Assembly (NCBI RefSeq): GCF_011043775.1
Contig: NZ_JAAKXY010000001.1
Coordinates: 535,617 to 599,616 of the forward strand
DNA: 64,000 bases
Source of the DNA: Natronolimnobius sp. AArcel1
Lineage (GTDB): Archaea; Halobacteriota; Halobacteria; Halobacteriales; Natrialbaceae
Direction of reading: 5' to 3'
Part shown: piece after piece, positions 22,427 through 42,843 of the stretch
Position numbering within the stretch: the first letter of the stretch is position 1
How the letters are laid out: every line of letters starts with the position of its first letter
Position numbers and translations under genes: made by a program
Notes under the pieces: model-generated
What the model saw: the letters and a program-made list of their open reading frames with translations, nothing else
What the model was told of the DNA's origin: nothing
The model's database searches: none

Positions 22427-24631
22427 TTACCGAACCTCGAACGTCGTCGAACACTCGTCACAGGTCAGTTCGAACGCTCCTGGCTCAACAGTTCGGCGGC
22501 CTCGAGCGTCAGTCACAGCGAGTGCAGCGTTCGGAATCGTCACTGACGCGGTCGTCGACTCGCCGGCCTCGAGCGAGACGCGCGTAAAGGCAACGTGTTC
22601 GCGGACCGGACGGACGATGGAACTCACCTCATCGCGCAAGAAGAAATCAAGCGCGCGAGCGCCGGCGCGGTCGCCGGTGTTCTCGACGGTGATCGTCGCC
22701 TGAACGGACTCAGCAGGGCCAATTTCGTCGTCCTCGACCTCGAGGCTCGAGCACTCGAAGGTGGTGTAGCTTTCGCCGTGGCCGAATTCGTAGAGCGGAT
22801 CGTACGTATCTGGGTGCTCATCAGCGCCAATCGGTGTCGGGTGAGCGTAGTAGTTAAACCGCGAGGGCAACTGCTCGGCCGACCGTGGAACACTGATCGG
22901 GAGGCGTCCTGCGGGGTTGTGCTCGCCGAACAGGACGTCTGCGACAGCACGGCCACCCTCGCTGCCCGGGTAGTACGACTGCAAAATGGCTGGCACGTGC
23001 TCGTCGGCCCACGAAATCGCGAGCGGACGACCCGTAATTGTCACCAGCACAGTCGGCGTCCCCGTCGCGTGAACGGTCTCGAGCAGGTCCCGCTGTGCGG
23101 CGGGCAACTCGAGTTGCGAACGCGTTGGGAACTCGCCAGTCTCGCCGACCAGTTGCTTCGGTCCGAACTCGTGGAAGTACCAGTTTTCGCCACAGACAAC
23201 CACCGCAACGTCCGAGTCGGCTGCCGCGGATTCGACAGCCTCGAGATTGACTGAACCGGTCATCGTTGCACCCTGTTCGTACCGAACTGTCGTCGCCTCG
23301 CTGACGCGGTCTCGGACTCCCTCGAGAACGGTCGTTCCGGAGTCTGGCTCGGGATGCTGGACGCTCCAGCCGCCGTACTGATGGCGCAAGGAGTCAGCGT
23401 TCGGCCCGGTCACGAGGAGCGACTCGACCGACGGCGACAGCGGGAGCAGGCCATCCTTGTTCTTCAGGAGCGTCTGAGAATCTTTGGCCGCCTCGTAGGC
23501 TGCCTCACGGTGCTCATCCCGGCCGACCACCTCGCTCGTTCGCTCGAGGTCGACGAACGGGTCGTCGAACAGCCCGAGGTCGACTTTCAGCGCGAGAATG
23601 CGATCAACTGCCTCGTCGATGCGTTCCTCTGAGAGTTCCCCCGTTTCGACGAGCGACTCGAGGTGGGCAGCGTACTCGCCATGGCCAACCGAGACCTGAT
23701 CGAGACCGGCCTCGACGGCCAGTTTCGCCGAGTCGCGCTGGGAGGCCGTCACCCGGTGGTCGTCATGGAGATGGTCAACACCGCCCCAGTCGGAGACCAC
23801 AGCGCCGTCGAAGCCGAGCCGTTCGCGAAGCAGTTCCGTGAGATAGCGCCGCGAGCCGTGGGCGGGTTCACCATCAATCGAATTGTAACACGGCATCACG
23901 ATGGAGGGATCGGCTGCGAGGGCGTCCTCGAACGGCGCGAGCAGTTGGCCGTACATGGTTGTACTCGAGCGGTCGACGACGGCGGCGTCCTCGCCACCGG
24001 CCGAGTCGCCGTAGGCCGGGAAGTGTTTTGCCGTCGCAGCGACCTGCGGGCTGTCGGTCGTCGACTCTAATCCGGTGATTGCTGCCGCACTAAACTGCCC
24101 GCACAGAAGCGGGCTCTCGCCGTACGTTTCGAACGTTCGGCCCCAGCGCTGGTCTCGAGCCACGTCGGACGTCGGCCCGTAGTTGACGTTCGCACCCGTT
24201 GCTCGCATCTCGGTTGCCGTAATCTCGCCAGCCGTCTGTGCGTGGTCGGGGCTGCGGGTTGCAGCGACACCGAGGCCGTGGGGAAACACTGCTGCATCGT
24301 GGACGTACGCGTGCCCGTGAACAGCGTCGACGGGCAACAGAAGCGGGATGCCGTGGCTGGTCTCCTCGAGTGCCGTGCGCTGGAGGTCGTTCGCAATTTC
24401 GGCGACGCGTTCTGGGTCGTGGTAGCGGGAAACGCCAATTCCGAACGCTGCGACGGTGCCGACGTTGTCTTCGACGACTTCCCGTTGTGCATCGTCTACA
24501 GAGACATCCCGTTCACCCATCGACCCGACGAACGTGCCAACCAGTTGCCCGACCTTCTCCGAGAGCGTGAGTTCGGATCGCAGTGTCGCGACCGACTCCG
24601 GTCTCGACTCGCCATCGAATTGCGCAGTCAT
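22427..24631 (-). CDS. bglX: Glycoside hydrolase family 3 beta-glucosidase-type enzyme
   Basis: A 734-aa cytosolic GH3 hydrolase releasing terminal beta-linked sugars from short oligosaccharides. The (beta/alpha)8 domain includes PLLLPVDAVHGH, the KHFPAYGD motif and the nucleophile Asp in GAVVSDWGGV (about 280). Next come the alpha/beta sandwich domain (about 400-600) and a fibronectin-III-like end (about 640-730). No signal peptide, so substrates must be imported, which fits the ABC importer genes upstream on the same strand. The ATG at 24631 is 26 nt from a TATA box, and the GTG at 24640 is less likely. Xylosidase activity is the main alternative. Confidence 0.9.
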   Translation of the reverse strand: MTAQFDGESRPESVATLRSELTLSEKVGQLVGTFVGSMGERDVSVDDAQREVVEDNVGTVAAFGIGVSRYHDPERVAEIANDLQRTALEETSHGIPLLLPVDAVHGHAYVHDAAVFPHGLGVAATRSPDHAQTAGEITATEMRATGANVNYGPTSDVARDQRWGRTFETYGESPLLCGQFSAAAITGLESTTDSPQVAATAKHFPAYGDSAGGEDAAVVDRSSTTMYGQLLAPFEDALAADPSIVMPCYNSIDGEPAHGSRRYLTELLRERLGFDGAVVSDWGGVDHLHDDHRVTASQRDSAKLAVEAGLDQVSVGHGEYAAHLESLVETGELSEERIDEAVDRILALKVDLGLFDDPFVDLERTSEVVGRDEHREAAYEAAKDSQTLLKNKDGLLPLSPSVESLLVTGPNADSLRHQYGGWSVQHPEPDSGTTVLEGVRDRVSEATTVRYEQGATMTGSVNLEAVESAAADSDVAVVVCGENWYFHEFGPKQLVGETGEFPTRSQLELPAAQRDLLETVHATGTPTVLVTITGRPLAISWADEHVPAILQSYYPGSEGGRAVADVLFGEHNPAGRLPISVPRSAEQLPSRFNYYAHPTPIGADEHPDTYDPLYEFGHGESYTTFECSSLEVEDDEIGPAESVQATITVENTGDRAGARALDFFLRDEVSSIVRPVREHVAFTRVSLEAGESTTASVTIPNAALAVTDARGRRTVEPGAFELTCDECSTTFEVR

Positions 24632-24653: not shown

Positions 24654-24660
24654 TACATAA
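24654..24660 (-). promoter_or_regulatory. TATA box of the GH3 gene
   Basis: Minus-strand TTATGTA centred 26 nt before the ATG at 24631. It gives the GH3 gene its own leaderless promoter in the 125-bp gap after the ABC operon. Confidence 0.6.
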
Positions 24661-24672
24661 ATCATTAGTATT

Positions 24673-24688
24673 TACTCGAAAAATAGTA
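24673..24688 (-). promoter_or_regulatory. TrmB-type operator at the GH3 promoter
   Basis: On the minus strand the site reads TACT-N7-GAGTA, an exact match to the consensus reported for haloarchaeal TrmB sugar regulators. It lies inside a longer inverted repeat (ATTTACT and AGTAAAT arms, 24670-24691) directly upstream of the TATA box. Confidence 0.55.
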
Positions 24689-24756
24689 AATTGGGATTGT
24701 CGACATGCCAGTGATCGTACCAGCATAACCAGGGGCCGAATCGAGACACTGCGCCG

Positions 24757-25869
24757 TCAGTCCGACGATGAGGACGCAGGTGCAGACTCTCCAGAGCGTG
24801 GGTCGTCGTCAGTCCCCGGAAGCGGGTCGCTCGACCAGTACTCGTGGCCGTCATCTTCGCGGAAGCACGCAACCTTGTGATCCGTACTGAGTTGGTACGC
24901 AGGCGGCTGTGTCTCGCCGCGACAGGCCTCGCGTGCTTTCGGACAGCGGGTGTGGAATCGACAGCCCGCTGGTGGATTCTTCGGGTCGGGAATGTCGATT
25001 TTGCGAACCGGCGGCTCGCCACCGTCGGCACCCGCTCGCAAGTCCGGCGTCGCCCAGCGAAGCACCTTCGTGTAGGGGTGTTTTGGGTTGTTGATGATCT
25101 GCTCGGGCGGCCCGACTTCGACGAGTCGCCCGAGATACATCACCCCGATCCTGCCGTCACCATGAGATGCAAAGTACCGCGCGTTCGAGAGGTCGTGTGA
25201 CACCGCGACGAACGATGTATCGAACTGCTCCTGTAACTCGAGCATGAGATCCATCATCTCGACGCGCAACGAGACGTCGAGTGCCGAAATCGCTTCATCA
25301 GCGAGGATGAGATCGGGATCCATCAACAGCGCCCGGATGAGTGCAACCCGCTGTTGCTCGCCGCCTGAGAGCTGGTGTGGATACCGACCGGCGTAATCGC
25401 CCGGCGGCGTCATCCCCACGCGCTCTAACATCTCGAGGACTTCGCGGCGACGGTCACCGGCACTCATTTCAGTTTGCCACCGTTTGAGCGGTGCCTCGAG
25501 GATCTTCATCACGCGCCGATTCGGGTTGAGCGAACTGCCAGGGTCCTGATGGATGATCTGCAACGAGCGTCGGATCTCGTCGTAGGGAATGTCGACATCG
25601 CCGCGTCGGTCTTTGGCATCCCAGATGTCTTGGCCGCGATAGCGGACGCGACCCCCAGTCGGTCGCTGCAGGCCAATTGAAGTCTTTCCGAGCGTGGTCT
25701 TGCCACAGCCGGATTCGCCGACCAGCGCGACCACGTCGTTTTCCTCGATATCGAGCGTGACATCGTCGACGGCGCGAACAACGTCTGGGTCGCCGAAATC
25801 GAACAGTCCCGTTTCTTCTTCGAAGTGTACTTCGACGTTCTCGAGTGAGACGAGTGTCTCTGCTGTCAT
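24757..25869 (-). CDS. dppF: Dpp/Opp-type ABC transporter ATPase (second ATP subunit)
   Basis: A 370-aa ATPase of the peptide/oligosaccharide importer class. Walker A GESGCGKTT (about 50), signature LSGGEQQRVALIRAL (about 168), Walker B LILADEAISALD, and the C-terminal oligo_HPY region with CRFHTRCPKAREAC. The ATG overlaps the dppD-like stop by 4 bp (ATGA). It is the last gene of the five-gene importer and is followed by GH3. In archaea this transporter class often carries beta-linked oligosaccharides rather than peptides. Confidence 0.92.
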   Translation of the reverse strand: MTAETLVSLENVEVHFEEETGLFDFGDPDVVRAVDDVTLDIEENDVVALVGESGCGKTTLGKTSIGLQRPTGGRVRYRGQDIWDAKDRRGDVDIPYDEIRRSLQIIHQDPGSSLNPNRRVMKILEAPLKRWQTEMSAGDRRREVLEMLERVGMTPPGDYAGRYPHQLSGGEQQRVALIRALLMDPDLILADEAISALDVSLRVEMMDLMLELQEQFDTSFVAVSHDLSNARYFASHGDGRIGVMYLGRLVEVGPPEQIINNPKHPYTKVLRWATPDLRAGADGGEPPVRKIDIPDPKNPPAGCRFHTRCPKAREACRGETQPPAYQLSTDHKVACFREDDGHEYWSSDPLPGTDDDPRSGESAPASSSSD

Positions 25870-27017
25870 CGGTCATCACCTGCTGGATCAGCAGTATCGG
25901 GTCGTGGTGGGTCCCCACGGCCGTACTCAGTCGTGTCGTTGTGCATCGTCGTGTTTGTCTCGACCTCACCGTCGATGTTGAACGGAATTTCCGCGGCTGC
26001 CTGTTGCCAGTGATAGCACGCAACGTTGTGCTGGTCGGAAACCGCCTGATAGTCCGGGTCAGACGACTCACATTCCTCGTCCGAAAGCGGACAGCGCGGA
26101 TGGTACGAACAGCCCGCGGGCACGTTGACAGGGTCCGGTGCCGAGCCCTCGATGGCCTGCATCTCCGAGAGCGGCGCGTCGAGATTCGGCGTCGAGTTCA
26201 GTAGTGCCCGCGTGTAGGGGTGTGCTGCGTTGCCGAGAATCTCGTCAGTCGCACCGATTTCGATCATCTCGAAGGCGTACATCACCGCCATTCGATCGGC
26301 GAGTTCTGCAACCAGCGGTAGGTCGTGTGTGATAAACAGCAGCGTCAGATCGTACTTCTCTTGTAACCCCTCGAGCAGGGACAGAATTGACCGTTGCATC
26401 AACAGGTCAAGCGCCGCCGTCGGCTCGTCCATGACGAGCACGTCCGGCTCGAGAATCACCGAGAGCGCGATCAGTGCGCGCTGTTTCATCCCCCCCGAGA
26501 GTTCGTGTGGATACGACTCGAGGACGCGTTCTGGCTCGAGATACAGATCCGACAGGAGTTGGTGGGCGCGGGCCATCCCCTCGTCGATGTCGTAGTGGTG
26601 TGCACTGAGAGTTTCCTCGAAGTGTGCGCCGACGGACATCGTGGGATTGAACGAACTCATCGCACCCTGAAACACCATCGAGATGTCTTCCCACCGGAGC
26701 TGTTTCAGTTCCTGATCGTCGAGTTCGAGGACGTTGATCGGGTCGCGGTCCTCGGGATGATAGGTAATCTCGCCCGAGAGAATCCCCGGATCGACGACGG
26801 CGTCGAGCAACGCGGACGCGAGCATCGATTTCCCGCTCCCGCTCTCGCCAACGACACCAAGGATTTCGTTTCGCTCGAGGTCGAGATTGGCGTTATCGAG
26901 CACTCTCGAGACGCCACGTTCCATATCGAATACCACTTCGGCGTCTCTGATCTCGATGATTGGATCGGCCGTCTGGTACAGTTCGCGGTCAGTTGTGGAG
27001 TCGTGTTGCATGCTCAT
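25866..27017 (-). CDS. dppD: Dpp/Opp-type ABC transporter ATPase (first ATP subunit)
   Basis: A 383-aa ATPase with Walker A GESGSGKSMLASALL (about 56), signature LSGGMKQRALIALS, Walker B VLVMDEPTAALD, and an oligo_HPY tail with CSYHPRCPLSDEEC plus an acidic extension. The ATG overlaps the permease stop by 4 bp. It forms the heterodimeric motor with the next gene. The two ATPases are clearly different sequences, as usual for this class. Confidence 0.92.
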   Translation of the reverse strand: MSMQHDSTTDRELYQTADPIIEIRDAEVVFDMERGVSRVLDNANLDLERNEILGVVGESGSGKSMLASALLDAVVDPGILSGEITYHPEDRDPINVLELDDQELKQLRWEDISMVFQGAMSSFNPTMSVGAHFEETLSAHHYDIDEGMARAHQLLSDLYLEPERVLESYPHELSGGMKQRALIALSVILEPDVLVMDEPTAALDLLMQRSILSLLEGLQEKYDLTLLFITHDLPLVAELADRMAVMYAFEMIEIGATDEILGNAAHPYTRALLNSTPNLDAPLSEMQAIEGSAPDPVNVPAGCSYHPRCPLSDEECESSDPDYQAVSDQHNVACYHWQQAAAEIPFNIDGEVETNTTMHNDTTEYGRGDPPRPDTADPAGDDR

Positions 27018-28096
27018 TGTGTCACCGTCGTCATCGGATCTGGTTCGTCGCTCTCATCTGGGTCAGTCTCACCTTCGTGTCGCGTGCGGACGCGTGGGTT
27101 GAACAGCCGGTCGGTCCCCTGTGCGAACAGCATCAGGCCAAACGAGAGGATTACGATGGGCAACATCGGGACGACCAACATGTACGTCGCGTTCGGATTG
27201 AGCAGCGCACTCGCGTTTTCGTACGCGAGGTTCATCATCACACCCCAGTTTTCCACTCCTCTAAAGGAGAGGAATCCGAGGAAGTACAGCGCAACGCTGT
27301 CGTAGATTACCCGTCTCGAGGCGAACACGAAGTTGACCAGAATGTATGGCATCAAATTCGGGAGCACATCCTTCTGAATGATCGTTCCCGTCCCGATGCC
27401 CATCGTCCGCGAAGCCTCGACGTAGGAGTTCTCACGCAGGGACAGAACCTGTGAGTGAATCGTTCGGGCGATGCCCGCCCAGACGTTGATCGTAATGATG
27501 ATCCCGATCAGCGCTGGCGATTGTGGCTCGATCAGAACGACGAGGACGATCACCAGCGGGAGGCCAGGAATCGTCATTGCGATGTCGCTTGCGGTCATGA
27601 GGATGGTCTCCGTCCGACCGCCTTTGTAGCCGGCGACAGTGCCGACGATCGTTGCGACGATGATCGTAAAGACGGCACCGGCAAGGATCATCTGGATCAT
27701 CGTCGGCGTCGCGTGAACGACACCAGAGATCATGTCACGACCACTCATGTCGGTGCCAAGCGGATGACTCATATCCTCGAACGGCTGTGTTCGGGGCTCT
27801 CCCTGGCCGGCAACCGGTTGTTCGATCAGCGTGAGTCGATCCAGCAGCCACCACGTCGACGACGAGATCCAGGCGACGAGTCCCATCCCGAGGAATCCGA
27901 AAATGATCAGTAGACCGATCTTCGTTCGCCAGTCCGACCACGCGATATGGAACGGCTTGGTGATCGACTCGTTGACCCACTCTTGGGCTCGTTGTTTGTG
28001 CGTTACTTGTGTGATCTCGGATTGGGAGAACATTCCCCCGTCCGTCCGTGCGTCACTCCCGTCGGCGGTGTCGTCAGTACGCTTCACCCTCATCAC
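27014..28096 (-). CDS. dppC: Dpp/Opp-type ABC permease (DppC-like)
   Basis: A 360-aa inner-membrane subunit with an acidic cytosolic N-terminus, a first helix near 60-80 (IGLLIIFGFLGMGLVAWI), and five more helices. The coupling motif EASRTMGIGTGTIIQKDVLPNLMPY (about 230-255) contacts the ATPases. A periplasmic-side loop after helix 1 carries PLGTDMSGRD, typical of DppC. It overlaps the upstream dppB-like gene by 23 bp. Confidence 0.9.
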   Translation of the reverse strand: MMRVKRTDDTADGSDARTDGGMFSQSEITQVTHKQRAQEWVNESITKPFHIAWSDWRTKIGLLIIFGFLGMGLVAWISSSTWWLLDRLTLIEQPVAGQGEPRTQPFEDMSHPLGTDMSGRDMISGVVHATPTMIQMILAGAVFTIIVATIVGTVAGYKGGRTETILMTASDIAMTIPGLPLVIVLVVLIEPQSPALIGIIITINVWAGIARTIHSQVLSLRENSYVEASRTMGIGTGTIIQKDVLPNLMPYILVNFVFASRRVIYDSVALYFLGFLSFRGVENWGVMMNLAYENASALLNPNATYMLVVPMLPIVILSFGLMLFAQGTDRLFNPRVRTRHEGETDPDESDEPDPMTTVTQ

Positions 28097-29087
28097 CCGA
28101 TTTGATCCGCGGATCTAGTTTGCCATACGTCGCATCACCGATCCAGATAGCGATCACCACCCCGAACGTGATGACGAGGAACGTCCCCATCATCAGCGGC
28201 ATATCGCGGTAGATGATCCCTTGCTCCATGATGAAGCCGATCCCCCGGTAATTAAAGAGGATCTCGAGGATGATCGAGCCACCGAACATGAATCCGATGG
28301 AGATCAGCAGGCTGGTATACAGCGGCAACACGGCGTTGCGGCCGACGTACCGAAGTGCGATGCGCCGATCCGACAGGCCACGTAACTGTGCGACTCTGAC
28401 GTAATCTTCACCGAGTGTTTGGATGCTGTTTCCGCGCATCGTCAGGGCAAGCAGTCCGTAGCCGGTGATGATGAACGACAGCGCAGGCAACATGGCGTGG
28501 TGGAGCGCACCGAAGATGAACTCAAATGAGAGTCCGGGATCGACACCTGATGGATAGCGCTCACCAGTTGGGAACAGCGGTGTCCGATAGCCAAGCAGTG
28601 CGATGAAGACGACTGCAGCAACGTAGTACGGCACGGAGCTAAGAAAGATCCCAACGCCCGTGTTGGCAAGGTCGAAGTACGACCCTTCCTTATAGGCCAT
28701 GATCGCCCCCAACGAGAGTGCAAGTGCGAACATGCCAAGCGTTGCAAGCGCCATCAGGAACAAGGTCCACGGCAGGACGTCTGCGATCAAGGTGTTGACC
28801 TGCTCGTCGTAGCGAATCGAGTAACCAAAGTCACCCTGTGCGAGGCTCGACATGTACTGATAGTACGCCTCGTGGATCGGTGCATCCGGATCAACCTGTA
28901 GCTGTGCGGCAATCTGTTCTCGTAACTGTTCTCGCGGGATGTTCGTCCCGGGTGAGTTTTGCTGAATCTGGGTCGCCATCATGTCCGCCGCACCGCCGGG
29001 CATGAGTCGAATAAGGCCGAACGAAAGCGTCGCGACTGCCCAGAGCGTAAAGAGTGCTTGTCCCGTCCGCTTGATAAACCACTTCAT
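28074..29087 (-). CDS. dppB: Dpp/Opp-type ABC permease (DppB-like)
   Basis: A 337-aa permease starting with the classical helix FIKRTGQALFTLWAVATLSFGLIRLMPGG. A long external loop follows (to about 95), then five helices. The ATPase-coupling loop is EDYVRVAQLRGLSDRRIALRYVGRNAV (about 225-250). Full length. It starts 36 bp after the substrate-binding gene. Confidence 0.91.
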   Translation of the reverse strand: MKWFIKRTGQALFTLWAVATLSFGLIRLMPGGAADMMATQIQQNSPGTNIPREQLREQIAAQLQVDPDAPIHEAYYQYMSSLAQGDFGYSIRYDEQVNTLIADVLPWTLFLMALATLGMFALALSLGAIMAYKEGSYFDLANTGVGIFLSSVPYYVAAVVFIALLGYRTPLFPTGERYPSGVDPGLSFEFIFGALHHAMLPALSFIITGYGLLALTMRGNSIQTLGEDYVRVAQLRGLSDRRIALRYVGRNAVLPLYTSLLISIGFMFGGSIILEILFNYRGIGFIMEQGIIYRDMPLMMGTFLVITFGVVIAIWIGDATYGKLDPRIKSGDEGEAY

Positions 29088-29123
29088 AGAGCGTTTATAT
29101 GCTGATATCGTGTCGCGTTGTCG

Positions 29124-30944
29124 TCAGTTCTCTGCAGCGGCTGTCGCTTTGAGTTCGTCCTGTTTTGCGAGCCAGTACAGCGGCCAGAACGCCATGAAAT
29201 GCTCCGAATCATCCGTGTGTGGGAACTCCCAGCCGTCTCGAGAGAGGAACGACTGTTCGTACTTCTCGTCGACAAGGTACATCGGCAGATCCTCGTTGAA
29301 GAGTCGTGCGAGGTTCTCGACGCGGTCTTGAATTTCGTCATCGTCGTTCGAGTTTGCAATCGTCGAAATTTCCTCGCGTGGATTGACGCTAAGTTCGCCA
29401 CCATCGCCGTCGTCGACGGTAATCTCCTCGTCTTCGGGGTAGTTGAAGAAGTTCGGTCGGCCGTGGTCTGGATTCTCGAACTTCCACCGGAACGAGAAGT
29501 ACGGATGATTCATCGAGGCGTTGCCACCCTCGGTGTGGTTGTAGGCGGCGACGGAGAAGTCACCATTGGCCAGGTTATCGCTCCAGACACCCTGGTCTTC
29601 AGTCTGGAGTTCTGCGTCGAAACCGGCGCTATTGAGTTGGTCGACCATGGTGCTCGTCGGCGTCACCCAGTCACCCCATCCCGCCGGAGCGATAATCTCA
29701 AACGAGAGTGCCTCGCCGTCTCGCTCCCAAGTATCGTCTTCATCTTCACGCTCGTAGCCAGCTTCCTCGAGCAGCTCTGTCACCATCTGCAGATCCTGTG
29801 CGTAGCTCTTGTACTCGTCTGTGTCGACCCAGTCGTCAAGTGCAGGAACAGTCAGGCCAGCCTGCACCGGGAACTCCATTTTGGTGTCCGAACCGGCCGA
29901 CGCAATCGCGGCATCGGTATCGACTGCGTAGGCAAACGCCTGTCGCACTTCCCGGTCGCCGAAATGCTCGTCTTCGAAGTTGAACACCATTCCCAGTCCG
30001 AAGCCGCCGGGAATCTGGATCTGCTCCAGTGTGTCCGGGAACTGTTCAAGTGCGCCAGGACCGGCGAACAGGCTGTGAATGCCGTCGATTTCCTGTGCAG
30101 CAAAGGCCTGATGAAACCCTTCGTTGCCACCAGACTGGTGGCCCATCTCGTAGCCATCCCAGTTGAAGTTGTCTGCGAGATGGTGATCATCGCGAACGCC
30201 GAACAGTGCCTGGCCCTCTTGGACCTCCTCGAGGTCTATGGGTCCGGACGGCGTCGGTTCATCGACATCGTGACCGAACAGGTCAATATCTTCGTCATCA
30301 GCAGGGTCATCGGAGTCGACGACCTGCTCGTGGACCTCGGCCCAATCGGCTGGCGGGTGATCGAGCTCGCGGTCGAGGACGACGTGGCGCATGACGTCGT
30401 GGTTCGTCCCCTCATCAAAGCCGATTTCGACGGTGTAGTCGTCGACGGCTTCGATGTCGTCGGCATCGGTGAAGTCGTAGATGTCGTCCTCGAGCGCTTC
30501 AAGAAGCTCGAGTTGCATCACGAAGTCCTCGGCGGTGATTTCCTCGCCGTCAGCCCAGGTGAACTCGTCGCTGATGTGCAGCGTCATGACGCCGTCGTCG
30601 ATATCCCAGTCCTCGACGGCGTGTGGGTAGTAATCGTCCTGTCCGACGAGGTATTTCGTCCATTCGGCGAACAGTGCAAACGAAATATGTGAGTAGCCCG
30701 CCCATGGATGCGGATTATACTGAAAGTCCGTAATCTGATGTTCGCCGTCGGCCGTCCGGAAGTACGCGTCGGCGTGGTCGACGACCTCCTGATCAGGATT
30801 GACAGCGTCTTCGTCATCGGTCCCATTCCCGTTCCCATTTCCGTTGTCATCGCCGCCGAAACAGCCTGCGAGTGCGGCTGCGCCCGCTGTCCCCGTGACA
30901 GCAAGCATGTCTCGACGTGACACTATATTGCCATAGTCTACCAT
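29124..30944 (-). CDS. Dpp/Opp-type ABC substrate-binding lipoprotein
   Basis: A 606-aa SBP_bac_5 protein. The N-terminus has a twin-arginine motif (SRRDMLAVTG) and lipobox LAGC (Cys about 28), then a Gly/Asn/Asp linker, so it is a Tat-exported, lipid-anchored surface receptor. The ATG at 30944 is 30 nt from a TATA box, and the frame to 31040 is not needed. Members of this family bind peptides or, in archaea, often cello-/manno-oligosaccharides. The downstream GH3 and the nearby GH2 favour sugars here, which is inference. Confidence 0.9.
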   Translation of the reverse strand: MVDYGNIVSRRDMLAVTGTAGAAALAGCFGGDDNGNGNGNGTDDEDAVNPDQEVVDHADAYFRTADGEHQITDFQYNPHPWAGYSHISFALFAEWTKYLVGQDDYYPHAVEDWDIDDGVMTLHISDEFTWADGEEITAEDFVMQLELLEALEDDIYDFTDADDIEAVDDYTVEIGFDEGTNHDVMRHVVLDRELDHPPADWAEVHEQVVDSDDPADDEDIDLFGHDVDEPTPSGPIDLEEVQEGQALFGVRDDHHLADNFNWDGYEMGHQSGGNEGFHQAFAAQEIDGIHSLFAGPGALEQFPDTLEQIQIPGGFGLGMVFNFEDEHFGDREVRQAFAYAVDTDAAIASAGSDTKMEFPVQAGLTVPALDDWVDTDEYKSYAQDLQMVTELLEEAGYEREDEDDTWERDGEALSFEIIAPAGWGDWVTPTSTMVDQLNSAGFDAELQTEDQGVWSDNLANGDFSVAAYNHTEGGNASMNHPYFSFRWKFENPDHGRPNFFNYPEDEEITVDDGDGGELSVNPREEISTIANSNDDDEIQDRVENLARLFNEDLPMYLVDEKYEQSFLSRDGWEFPHTDDSEHFMAFWPLYWLAKQDELKATAAAEN

Positions 30945-30983: not shown

Positions 30984-31004
30984 GTTTGTTGACTGTAAAC
31001 AAAC
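30984..31004. promoter_or_regulatory. Inverted-repeat operator of the ABC-importer operon
   Basis: Perfect arms GTTTGTT and AACAAAC with a 7-nt spacer, ending 6 bp upstream of the TATA box. The position parallels the GH3 site, but the sequence does not match TACT-N7-GAGTA. Confidence 0.5.
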
Positions 31005-38304: not shown

Positions 38305-39108
38305 CTACTGCGGAACGTTCTCTTCCCACTCAGAGTAGGTCGTATTCACTTCCACGACACCGACGATGTTCTGCAATTGATTTGGGATTGTCGTCGAGAA
38401 TCGATCACCGGTGAGTCGCGACGTTGGCCCAGAGACACTGATCGCACCCAACAGTTCGTCGGATCGATTCGTAATCGACACCGCGACACAGCGAACACCC
38501 TCGTGTCGTTCCTCATCGTCAAACGCTACATCGCGGGCGCGAATCTCCTCGAGTTCAGCCACCAACTCATCGCGGTCCATAATCGTCTCCGGCGTAAACG
38601 CTCGCAACTCGAGGTCATCGAGCAAGGCCTCTACACGCTGTGCCGGTAACGCAGCCAGAAACGCCTTCCCAGCGGCCGTACAGTGCAGTTCCTCGACTTG
38701 ACCGACGTACGAACGAGCCTGATCGACGTGTGCACCAGTCGACTGATACAGCGTAATTCCGCGCCCGCGTTGCTCGACAGCGAGTCGAACCTCTTCGCCC
38801 GTCTCGGCGGCCAGTCTGTCTACATCGTTTTTCGCCAGCTGATAGAGTCGCTGTCCTGCCCTCGCCTGGCCGCCGTAGGTTAGAAACTGCAGCCCAAGTC
38901 GGTAGCGGCCATTTGTTTTCTCGAGGCAGTTGTACAACTCGAGGGTCTTCACGTAGTGATGTGCCGTACTCTTTGACATCCCAATATCGGACGCGATTTC
39001 GGTTACTCCGGCTTCCTCGCGGCGACGAATCGACTCGAGGATCTCGAGCATCGTCTCGATCGATTTGATCGTTTTCCCCGTCTCCGACCCCGAGCGTTGG
39101 TCGTTCAT
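38305..39108 (-). CDS. IclR-family regulator of the sugar block
   Basis: A 267-aa regulator: winged HTH (KTIKSIETMLEILESIRR, then VTEIASDIGMSKSTAHHYVKTL, about 12-65) and an IclR effector domain (about 85-255) with CTAAGKAFLAALP and GAISVSGPTSRL. The start at MNDQRSG is 28 nt from a TATA box, while the ATG at 39123 would be only 12 nt away. It sits between a dehydrogenase and the GH2 beta-mannosidase on the same strand and probably controls this set. The effector is unknown. Confidence 0.88.
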   Translation of the reverse strand: MNDQRSGSETGKTIKSIETMLEILESIRRREEAGVTEIASDIGMSKSTAHHYVKTLELYNCLEKTNGRYRLGLQFLTYGGQARAGQRLYQLAKNDVDRLAAETGEEVRLAVEQRGRGITLYQSTGAHVDQARSYVGQVEELHCTAAGKAFLAALPAQRVEALLDDLELRAFTPETIMDRDELVAELEEIRARDVAFDDEERHEGVRCVAVSITNRSDELLGAISVSGPTSRLTGDRFSTTIPNQLQNIVGVVEVNTTYSEWEENVPQ

Positions 39109-39130
39109 ACTTCTTTCATCCATGGGCGAG

Positions 39131-39138
39131 TACAAATA
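39131..39138 (-). promoter_or_regulatory. TATA box of the sugar-block IclR gene
   Basis: Minus-strand CTTATTTG centred about 28 nt before the ATG at 39108. It decides the start. Confidence 0.55.
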
Positions 39139-39160
39139 AGTGCTGGGCGTTGGGAACCGA

Positions 39161-40240
39161 CTACGTCTCGGTCTCTGTGTAGATGCGATCGACGCCGCGT
39201 TGGGTCGTGAGTGCCTGTCGAACATTACACTGCTCTGGGCGTGTCTCAGTGACGACCGTCTCGAGGAACGTTGCAAGTTCATCACGGAAAGGATCGTTCT
39301 GCTCGCAAACGATTTCTGAGTTAACGAAGTGGTCGGCCGCACCACCACGCACTTCATACAGCGTGAGGTCGTTTCGTTGATCGATCCACGGATCGATCTC
39401 GTCTAAAGTGTTCGTAATATCGAGCGACGCACCTGCTTCCGTCCCTCGAACGTCGTAGGAGTGAACTGATTCGGCGTTCGTTGCCCATGCAACCTCGATA
39501 CTCGCTGTACAGTCATTTTCGAACTCGAGGAACGTATGCACCGAGTCTTCGACATCGTACATCCGCGCCTCGCCATCTTCACCCCACATCTCCAGATAGG
39601 AGTAGTCCTCTCGCGGCCCAAATTCCGAATTCGATTGACCAAGAACGTTGTCGATTGCTGGCCAGCCACAAAAGTACAGCACCATATCCAGCGCGTGGCT
39701 GCCGAGGTCCATGAGTGCGCCGCCACCAGCAATCTCTCGAGACGTGTACCACGTGCCACGCCCCGGCACCCCGCGCCGGCGAATATATTTCGCCTGAATG
39801 TGGGTAATATCGCCGAGGTAGCCCTGGTCGATGTAGTCTTTCAACACAGTGCAGGGATTGCGAAATCGGTGGTGATAGCCGACCATGCACACCCGTTCCG
39901 TCCGTTCAGCGACCTGTGCAATGCGTTCTGCACTCTCGACGGTATGTGCCAGTGGCTTCTCGAGTAACACGTCCAGGCCGGCCTCGAGCGCTTTCGTCGC
40001 GACGGGTTCGTGAAATTTCGTCGGCGACGAGATGATCACGGCGTCGATTGGTTCGTCAAACAGATTTGACGGGTGCTCGAACGTCTCCGTTTCAAACTCC
40101 GCAGCGAAGTCAGCCCGGATCGTCGGGTCCGCATCAGCCCCCAGCACGTCGTGACCTAACTCTTGAAGCGCCCGCGAGTGTCGCGTTCCGTGGCTTCCCA
40201 GCCCCACGATCCCGATCGTTAGTTGCTGCCGATCGTCCAT
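39161..40240 (-). CDS. Gfo/Idh/MocA-family oxidoreductase
   Basis: A 359-aa dehydrogenase distinct from the one at 32524. Rossmann loop IGIVGLGSHGTRHSRAL (about 9-25), lysine in LLEKPLAHTVESAER (about 95), and the catalytic-region ALMDLGSHALDMVLYFCGWP (about 175-195). NAD(P)-linked oxidation of a sugar or cyclitol is the family role. It lies just upstream of the IclR gene (52 bp) and has its own TATA box. Confidence 0.87.
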   Translation of the reverse strand: MDDRQQLTIGIVGLGSHGTRHSRALQELGHDVLGADADPTIRADFAAEFETETFEHPSNLFDEPIDAVIISSPTKFHEPVATKALEAGLDVLLEKPLAHTVESAERIAQVAERTERVCMVGYHHRFRNPCTVLKDYIDQGYLGDITHIQAKYIRRRGVPGRGTWYTSREIAGGGALMDLGSHALDMVLYFCGWPAIDNVLGQSNSEFGPREDYSYLEMWGEDGEARMYDVEDSVHTFLEFENDCTASIEVAWATNAESVHSYDVRGTEAGASLDITNTLDEIDPWIDQRNDLTLYEVRGGAADHFVNSEIVCEQNDPFRDELATFLETVVTETRPEQCNVRQALTTQRGVDRIYTETET

Positions 40241-40909: not shown

Positions 40910-42037
40910 ATGTCACAGGCTTCGCTCGAGTCAGTCGTCTTCGACCGAGCGCCGTGCGACCAGTTGCAGGTGCTCGATACGGACGGCAACGTCGTCAGTC
41001 CCGAACTCGAGCCAGTACTCGAGGATGAAACGCTTCGGGCGATGTATCGTGATATGCGCTTTGCACGGCGATTCGACGAACGAGCGATTAGTCTCCAGCG
41101 GCAGGGGCGAGTTGGAACGTACGCCTCGCTTGCGGGCCAGGAAGGGTCACAGATTGGGTCGACGTATGCACTTGCGGATGCGGATTTGCTCTCCTATCAG
41201 TACCGCGAGCACGGTGCGGTAATCGCACGGGGACTTCCGTGGGAGTATCTGTTATACTGGCTCGGCCACGAAGCCGGAAACGCTGCGCTTGCCGACCTCG
41301 AGATCTTTCCGCTCAATATTTCGATTGGGGCGCACCTTCCCCACGTCGTTGGCTGGTCGTGGGCGGCACAGTTGAAAGACGATGATCGCGTCGGTGTTGT
41401 CCACTTCGGCGATGGGGCGACCTCCGAGGGCGACTTCCACGAGGCGCTCAACTTCGCTGGCGTCTTTGACACACCAACGATTTTCGTCTGTAACAACAAC
41501 CAGTGGGCGATTTCGGTTCCACGAAAGGCACAGACCGCGAGCCAGACGATCGCGCAGAAAGCACACGCCTACGGCTTCGAGGGCGTTCAGGTCGATGGCA
41601 TGGATCCGCTCGCCTGTTACGTTGTCACACAGGCCGCACGAGCAAAGGCGCTCGAGCCGACCGATGGGCGCGCCCGACCGACACTTATTGAAGCCGTCCA
41701 GTACCGCTACGGCGCACACACGACAGCTGACGATCCATCCGCATACCGCGACGAAGCCGAGGTCGAGCGGTGGCGAAAGCGGGATCCGATTGACCGCTTC
41801 GAATCGTATCTTCGTGGACGGGACCTCCTCGATGACGGCCAGATAGAGACGATCGAAGCCAACATCGAATCGACCCTCTCTGAACTGATCGAACGCGCCG
41901 AAGCGGTGACAGCCGATCCACGGGCGATCTTTGAACACGTCTACGACACGCCGACACAACGACTCGAGCGCCAGCGGAAGACCCTCGAGCAGTACAGAGC
42001 CGAACACGGCGACGAACGGTTACTCGAGGACGAGTAA
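40910..42037 (+). CDS. 2-oxoacid dehydrogenase E1 component, alpha subunit
   Basis: This 375-aa thiamine-diphosphate enzyme subunit decarboxylates pyruvate or branched-chain 2-oxo acids as alpha2beta2 with an E1-beta. The TPP motif runs from GDGATSEGDFHEAL to NNNQWAIS (about 167-200), with RYGAHTTADDP near 265. The ATG at 40910 is 27 nt from a TATA box. No E1-beta, E2 or E3 gene follows, so the partner must be elsewhere or the protein has another role. Branched-chain use is suggested by neighbouring acyl-CoA genes, not by sequence. Confidence 0.87.
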   Translation: MSQASLESVVFDRAPCDQLQVLDTDGNVVSPELEPVLEDETLRAMYRDMRFARRFDERAISLQRQGRVGTYASLAGQEGSQIGSTYALADADLLSYQYREHGAVIARGLPWEYLLYWLGHEAGNAALADLEIFPLNISIGAHLPHVVGWSWAAQLKDDDRVGVVHFGDGATSEGDFHEALNFAGVFDTPTIFVCNNNQWAISVPRKAQTASQTIAQKAHAYGFEGVQVDGMDPLACYVVTQAARAKALEPTDGRARPTLIEAVQYRYGAHTTADDPSAYRDEAEVERWRKRDPIDRFESYLRGRDLLDDGQIETIEANIESTLSELIERAEAVTADPRAIFEHVYDTPTQRLERQRKTLEQYRAEHGDERLLEDE

Positions 42038-42635: not shown

Positions 42636-42843
42636 GACCGACCAAAAACAGCGCTTTCTCGCGAATCGATTCGAGCCTCGAGACGGATGGCAAACAGCCT
42701 CGTCGTCGTGATATTTTGTACACTAGTAACGGACAACACAATGGTTGTTGAGACACATCATCCACAGGCGACTCCTAACAGACATTCGCTTGAGAGTAAC
42801 ATTTATATTGGCAGACATTGTCACACACGTCTGTGAAAGCCGT

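Follow-up and report, generated by a model that had tools for sequence, protein, structure and literature searches.

A TrmB-type palindrome at the promoter of a GH3 glycoside hydrolase gene in Natronolimnobius sp. AArcel1: a putative operator with a new target

Background

The closest described relatives of the element studied here belong to the TrmB regulon of haloarchaea, represented by VNG1451C of Halobacterium salinarum and HAH_1548 of Haloarcula hispanica. The regulator binds mainly in the absence of glucose and is released by the sugar (PMC10817205, PMC4158304, PMC3794607). The consensus printed for Halobacterium TrmB is TACT-N7-8-GAGTA (PMC4158304, PMC3794607). In Haloarcula, a motif upstream of the initiation features goes along with activation and a motif overlapping the BRE with repression, with one exception (PMC10817205). 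TrmB targets shared by Halobacterium and Haloarcula include gapII and ppsA, the former being activated by TrmB in Haloarcula (PMC10817205). In Haloarcula hispanica, gdh is ChIP peak 4, without significant change in expression, and the TrmB table lists no glycoside hydrolase among its 15 peaks (PMC10817205).

A second group of systems comprises TrmB of Pyrococcus and Thermococcus with its TM and MD operons, where a TrmB-family protein controls oligosaccharide uptake and breakdown. Its TACT/AGTA half-sites are found at the BRE/TATA box (PMC4158304). They are separated by N3, and the regulator gene lies beside the sugar operon.

Here we analyse a palindrome at the promoter of a gene for a GH3 glycoside hydrolase in Natronolimnobius sp. 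AArcel1. With the haloarchaeal regulon it shares the TACT-N7-GAGTA palindrome adjoining BRE and TATA box, and the same genome contains the equivalog TrmB. Related palindromes also occur here before gapII and gdh, whose promoters are both bound in Haloarcula (PMC10817205). It differs in that one half-site is TACTA and the putative target is a GH3 gene. The likeness to the Thermococcales systems lies in the half-sites and their promoter position; the spacing is N8 instead of N3, and the core TrmB gene resides on a different contig from GH3, with no TrmB-family match near the latter. Among the literature matches listed, no title or abstract opening links haloarchaeal TrmB with GH3.

Results and discussion

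Architecture of the GH3 promoter

The window is the whole stretch of DNA that was analysed, 64,000 nucleotides long. We compared the source genome (G000) with one congeneric genome (G001), whose GH3 is 91% identical. The relevant features of the window are as follows.

22427..24631, minus strand: GH3 glycoside hydrolase, 734 aa, with GH3 N, GH3 C and Fn3-like domains (Pfam)
24654..24661, minus strand: TATA-like TTTATGTA, centred at -26.5 from ATG 24631, kept in G001
24662..24668, minus strand: BRE region, placed by distance, one base off the inner edge of the palindrome
24670..24691, minus strand: putative TrmB operator, inverted repeat ATTTACT-N8-AGTAAAT, -39 to -60 from the GH3 ATG
24673..24688, minus strand (24688-24673): core TACT-N7-GAGTA, TACTATTTTTCGAGTA, by pattern match and matrix
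24757..25869, minus strand: ABC transporter ATPase B (ORF; family by reading the sequence; same gene order in G001)
25866..27017, minus strand: ABC transporter ATPase A (ORF; family by reading the sequence)
27014..28096, minus strand: ABC permease B (ORF; family by reading the sequence)
28074..29087, minus strand: ABC permease A (ORF; family by reading the sequence)
29124..30944, minus strand: family 5 solute-binding protein, SBP_bac_5 (Pfam), with ATG 30944 as the start suggested by its TATA
30986..31002, no strand assigned: palindrome TTGTT-N7-AACAA at the promoter of the solute-binding protein, directly upstream of its TATA, arms and spacing kept in G001

Read on the minus strand, positions 24691-24670 are ATTTACTATTTTTCGAGTAAAT (ATTTACT-ATTTTTCG-AGTAAAT), with arms complementary at 7 of 7 positions and a spacer of 8 nt. 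Both the coordinates and the minus-strand TACT-N7-GAGTA inside 7-bp arms had been given in the initial annotation and proved correct when the sequence was re-read. The distance of "about 13 bp" from the TATA box is likewise fair, there being 8 nt between box and palindrome edge, or 12.5 nt when measured from the TATA centre. The site lies between the last gene of the ABC transporter cluster and GH3, both on the minus strand. Because the centring of TTTATGTA at -26.5 agrees with the usual distance of the haloarchaeal TATA box (PMC10817205), we favour ATG 24631 as the GH3 start, and the mRNA is probably leaderless from this codon. The palindrome adjoins the BRE and TATA elements and is thus placed where control of the promoter would be possible, provided that start and promoter are as the sequence suggests. 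Assignment of the protein to the GH3 family is borne out by Pfam, while "oligosaccharide hydrolase", the function ascribed to it earlier, goes beyond this; the substrate is unproven and no NCBIfam family cut-off was reached.

The ABC transporter cluster extends over 24757-30944. The palindrome at its promoter, TTGTT-N7-AACAA, has 1 match where 0.02 are expected and may be a separate operator of the transporter operon, for another regulator. Since it differs from the GH3 palindrome, uptake and hydrolysis may obey different regulators. No TrmB-family gene is present inside the GH3 cluster of either G000 or G001; the PF01978 match nearest to GH3 is about 35 kb off at C1:595723, and contig C1 has no PF11495 match.

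Frequency of the bare consensus

The GH3 site fits TACT-N7-8-GAGTA as published for Halobacterium TrmB, just as had been claimed. In the window, TACT-N7-GAGTA yields 3 strand-matches against 0.15 expected, two of the three representing one palindrome at 42021. A looser palindrome, TTACT-N8-AGTAA with at most 2 mismatches, shows no clear excess in the window (8 matches against 5.5 expected); the 2 perfect ones among the 8 are the GH3 site and 42020. Over the whole genome we counted 33 strand-matches of TACT-N7-GAGTA and 24 of a backwards control. The former fall at 24 separate places, of which a simple ORF caller assigns 11 to intergenic and 13 to coding DNA. The initial annotation had regarded equal frequency in coding and promoter DNA as an argument against the site. 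The raw counts go half of the way in this direction, but intergenic DNA is the smaller part: as 86.7% of the window is coding by the same caller, the intergenic places are over-represented, which AT-richness could explain in part. With 13 of 24 places coding and 33 matches against 24 in the control, we rejected the exact consensus as stand-alone evidence. The bare consensus is weak evidence for an operator, and for this reason an independent matrix was built from gapII and ppsA promoters.

A matrix from gapII and ppsA promoters

In the gapII and ppsA promoters of relatives, a palindrome whose core is ACTC-N6-GAGT appears repeatedly, some 83 nt ahead of the domain start. In the interval -82 to -85 it is found at 14 of 25 gapII loci (at most 3 mismatches) and at 12 of the 26 ppsA loci examined (at most 4 mismatches). 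The 30 loci for the matrix were picked after the gapII and ppsA lists had been seen, and are hence selected for having the pattern; 29 sites having no more than 4 mismatches went into it, L106 was dropped and the GH3 site was excluded. As positive control, fbp gave no good site in any of the 26 loci examined out of 30; the PF00316 matches begin inside the protein and the upstream stretches are partly coding. The source genome's own ppsA promoter has a degenerate site with one good half-site.

The GH3 site scores 17.59 bits, the second highest value in the window, and is the only non-coding one among the window's 4 matches of at least 14 bits. A matrix scan of the whole genome had been proposed earlier; the ranking here is that within the 64,000-nt window, and the whole genome was covered by the pattern search instead. 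First-order simulated non-coding DNA attains the score of the GH3 site 0.0003 times per 200 nt. One half of the site has T where the matrix has a near-invariant G. This T is shared by G001, and halves of the TTACTA type are also present at gdh and the gene after it. As a prediction the earlier reading is right in kind, while its word "exact" is true of the literal TACT-N7-GAGTA and overstated against the gapII/ppsA core.

The top matrix score in the window (20.1) belongs to positions 42020-42037, where a perfect TTACTC-N6-GAGTAA overlaps an E1 dehydrogenase gene at its stop codon and is followed by a TATA-like box and a 174-aa ORF; it is kept in G001 (L348). A weaker TrmB-like site (12.2 bits) occupies the non-coding positions 42779-42802; a TATA-like box and a short ORF come immediately after it.

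Conservation in a congener

Between G000 and G001, the GH3 palindrome is identical at 20 of 22 positions, the intergenic DNA upstream of it at 31 of 65, the 38 nt from palindrome to ATG at 34, and fourfold sites of GH3 at a rate of 0.70. For the palindrome, the binomial probability is 2.6e-5 when the upstream rate is taken as reference and 0.02 with the fourfold rate. In G001 the site scores only 12.4, a value attained 0.008 times per 200 nt of simulated non-coding DNA.

TTACTC-N6-GAGTAA with at most 1 mismatch is present 13 times in G000 (control 5) and 8 times in G001 (control 3). The simple ORF caller places 7 of the 13 in intergenic and 6 in coding DNA. An orthologous site exists in G001 for 5 of the 7 intergenic and 1 of the 6 coding palindromes; at the rest, the pattern has no match in G001. 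The five kept intergenic ones belong to GH3, the gene after gdh, two paralogous small genes, and a position between PCC-domain and CBS-domain genes; the sole coding one with a counterpart overlaps the stop codon at window position 42020.

These small genes (L059:1123-1518 and L064:1150-1518) encode 122 and 113 aa without Pfam match, and each has a palindrome about 10 nt before its start, both kept in G001. Elsewhere, an ORF of 50-51 aa (L060:1501-1663 / L350:1501-1660, MSKILAILAAYTKTGAK...) begins inside a conserved perfect palindrome and recalls the small TrmB-induced proteins (<50 aa) reported for Haloarcula hispanica.

Several findings weigh against a TrmB operator at GH3: the T in place of the near-invariant G, the lower score in G001, the occurrence in one genus only among the full-length orthologues, the outcomes at fbp and at the genome's own ppsA promoter, the small margin of the bare consensus over its backwards control, and the Haloarcula gdh peak with no significant change in expression. 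The core promoter beside the palindrome is also conserved equally well, so that part of the conservation may reflect promoter constraint. One could go further and suppose that there is no regulator, only an AT-rich stretch, conserved as core promoter, that resembles the TrmB pattern by accident. The number of exact matches in coding DNA and the ordinary frequency of the loose palindrome in the window are in keeping with this, and the site was chosen from many promoters. Yet conservation falls off just outside the palindrome on its upstream side, the matrix score is hardly ever reached by chance, and similar palindromes recur at gdh and gad, so we hold such a coincidence to be quite improbable. 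A TrmB-type operator is well supported as a prediction, since the published consensus, the TrmB equivalog and conservation in the congener come together.

Related palindromes at gdh and the following gene

TrmB-like palindromes, both kept in G001, were found at two further promoters.

L024:2397-2420: palindrome before gdh
L067:1501-1518: palindrome before the next gene

The GH3 site most resembles the one at the gdh promoter, ATTTACTATTAACTGGGTAAAT, with which it is identical at 17 of 22 positions (manual count). The gene after gdh is of the MR/MLE family and probably encodes gluconate dehydratase (gad). Counted manually from the ATG, the site centres are -66.5 at gapII, -49.5 at GH3, -41.5 at gdh and -20.5 at the next gene.

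Which regulator binds

The initial annotation had made its reading dependent on a TrmB gene, and the source genome does have one: the haloarchaeal TrmB equivalog NF047392 is matched with 607 bits (cut-off 500). The equivalog is likewise found in all 16 genomes with a full-length GH3 orthologue. The sugar-binding domain of this core TrmB scores 212.7 bits with PF11495, and the Gly and Glu residues that bind sugar can be aligned with those of Pyrococcus TrmB 3qph; these residues of TrmB are named in PMC10817205. As G000 has four more full-length TrmB paralogues (97-177 bits), the binder at the GH3 site can only be inferred. In G001, core TrmB is found with 602 bits, all other matches there are partial (45-53 bits), and no counterpart of the four full-length paralogues was detected at E 0.001. 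Core TrmB would be the likeliest binder, because it is the only full-length TrmB found in G001, which keeps the site.

Instead, a functional operator might serve another regulator: a short TrmB-like winged-helix protein, the IclR-family protein at 38305-39357 inside the window, or, in G000 only, a full-length paralogue such as L024. The additional full-length proteins of G000 lend some weight to this idea, as does the location of L024 just upstream of gdh, whose site resembles that of GH3, and partial TrmB-like matches of 44-53 bits are present in both species. Against it, the pattern is the published TrmB one, and G001 keeps the sites at GH3, gdh and gad with none of the four full-length paralogues matched at E 0.001. 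L024 in particular was rejected as the binder, G001 retaining the GH3 and gdh sites without an orthologue of it. On balance, we think another regulator unlikely, and we are moderately confident that the sugar-sensing haloarchaeal TrmB uses the palindrome as a functional operator at the promoter of GH3 itself.

Proposed mechanism

We suggest that core TrmB, presumably as a dimer, sits on the GH3 operator when glucose is scarce. Binding of sugar in its C-terminal domain would then cause release from the operator, as is known for Halobacterium and Haloarcula TrmB. GH3 would thereby join the circuit of gdh and the next gene (probably gad), which oxidise the sugar freed by such hydrolases. The operator abuts the BRE and is nearer to the positions seen at the catabolic genes, which makes us lean slightly towards repression without sugar, relieved by sugar, over activation; the initial annotation had named neither.

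Occurrence in other genera

Among 125 genomes of the family we collected 16 full-length GH3 orthologues at an identity of at least 66%, leaving out G054 (partial, 68%) and G074 (interrupted, 70%). The site is present in 2 of the 16, both from one genus, and in all 14 full-length GH3 promoters of other genera no site of at least 7 bits occurs within 200 nt upstream. Across the orthologues studied, the GH3 site is confined to this genus.

In 11 of the 16 genomes a TrmB-family paralogue directly follows GH3 (loci L255 and L258-L267; split into two pieces in G070); G000, G001, G087, G009 and G008 lack it. The same type of transporter stands beside GH3 in 7 of the 11. In four of them (L264-L267), the neighbour of GH3 is a different ABC transporter with divergent orientation. 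In all 11 genomes, the 200 nt upstream of GH3 contain nothing comparable to the site, the best score being 6.8 bits. These clusters share an orthologous GH3 (66-73%) with our locus and show the reverse arrangement, a TrmB paralogue after GH3 and no site of at least 7 bits. The site is present in 2 of 5 genomes without the local paralogue and in 0 of 11 with it; the two represent one lineage, so we make no statistical claim on the association. On the GH3 tree, the local-paralogue label needs two changes, and one change remains compatible. The second GH3 of the source genome (52%) has TrmB paralogue L025 alongside.

Considering how frequently a TrmB paralogue accompanies GH3 elsewhere, while this genus has none there, the palindrome might be a relic, i.e. 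the operator of such a paralogue that was lost here. A relic deprived of its binder should not be conserved at 20 of 22 positions, and the very genomes that possess the paralogue are without a comparable site; we consider this explanation highly improbable. We therefore retain the reading of a functional operator of core TrmB and propose, tentatively and with doubt prevailing, how it may have arisen: GH3 was ancestrally under control of the adjacent TrmB paralogue, and in this genus the paralogue was lost and an operator for the global TrmB gained, which tied GH3 to gdh and gad and left the transporter operon on its separate operator. An exchange of this kind, local for global control, is conceivable, and the case for it rests on one lineage.

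Conclusions

Taken together, the GH3 site is a good candidate for an operator that would be ordinary in kind and new in its target. If our interpretation is true, haloarchaeal TrmB extends past gluconeogenesis to intracellular glycoside breakdown, similarly to the oligosaccharide role of TrmB in Thermococcales. If the proposed rewiring is true as well, this GH3 clade would represent a compact case in which a local paralogue was swapped for a global one within one regulator family.
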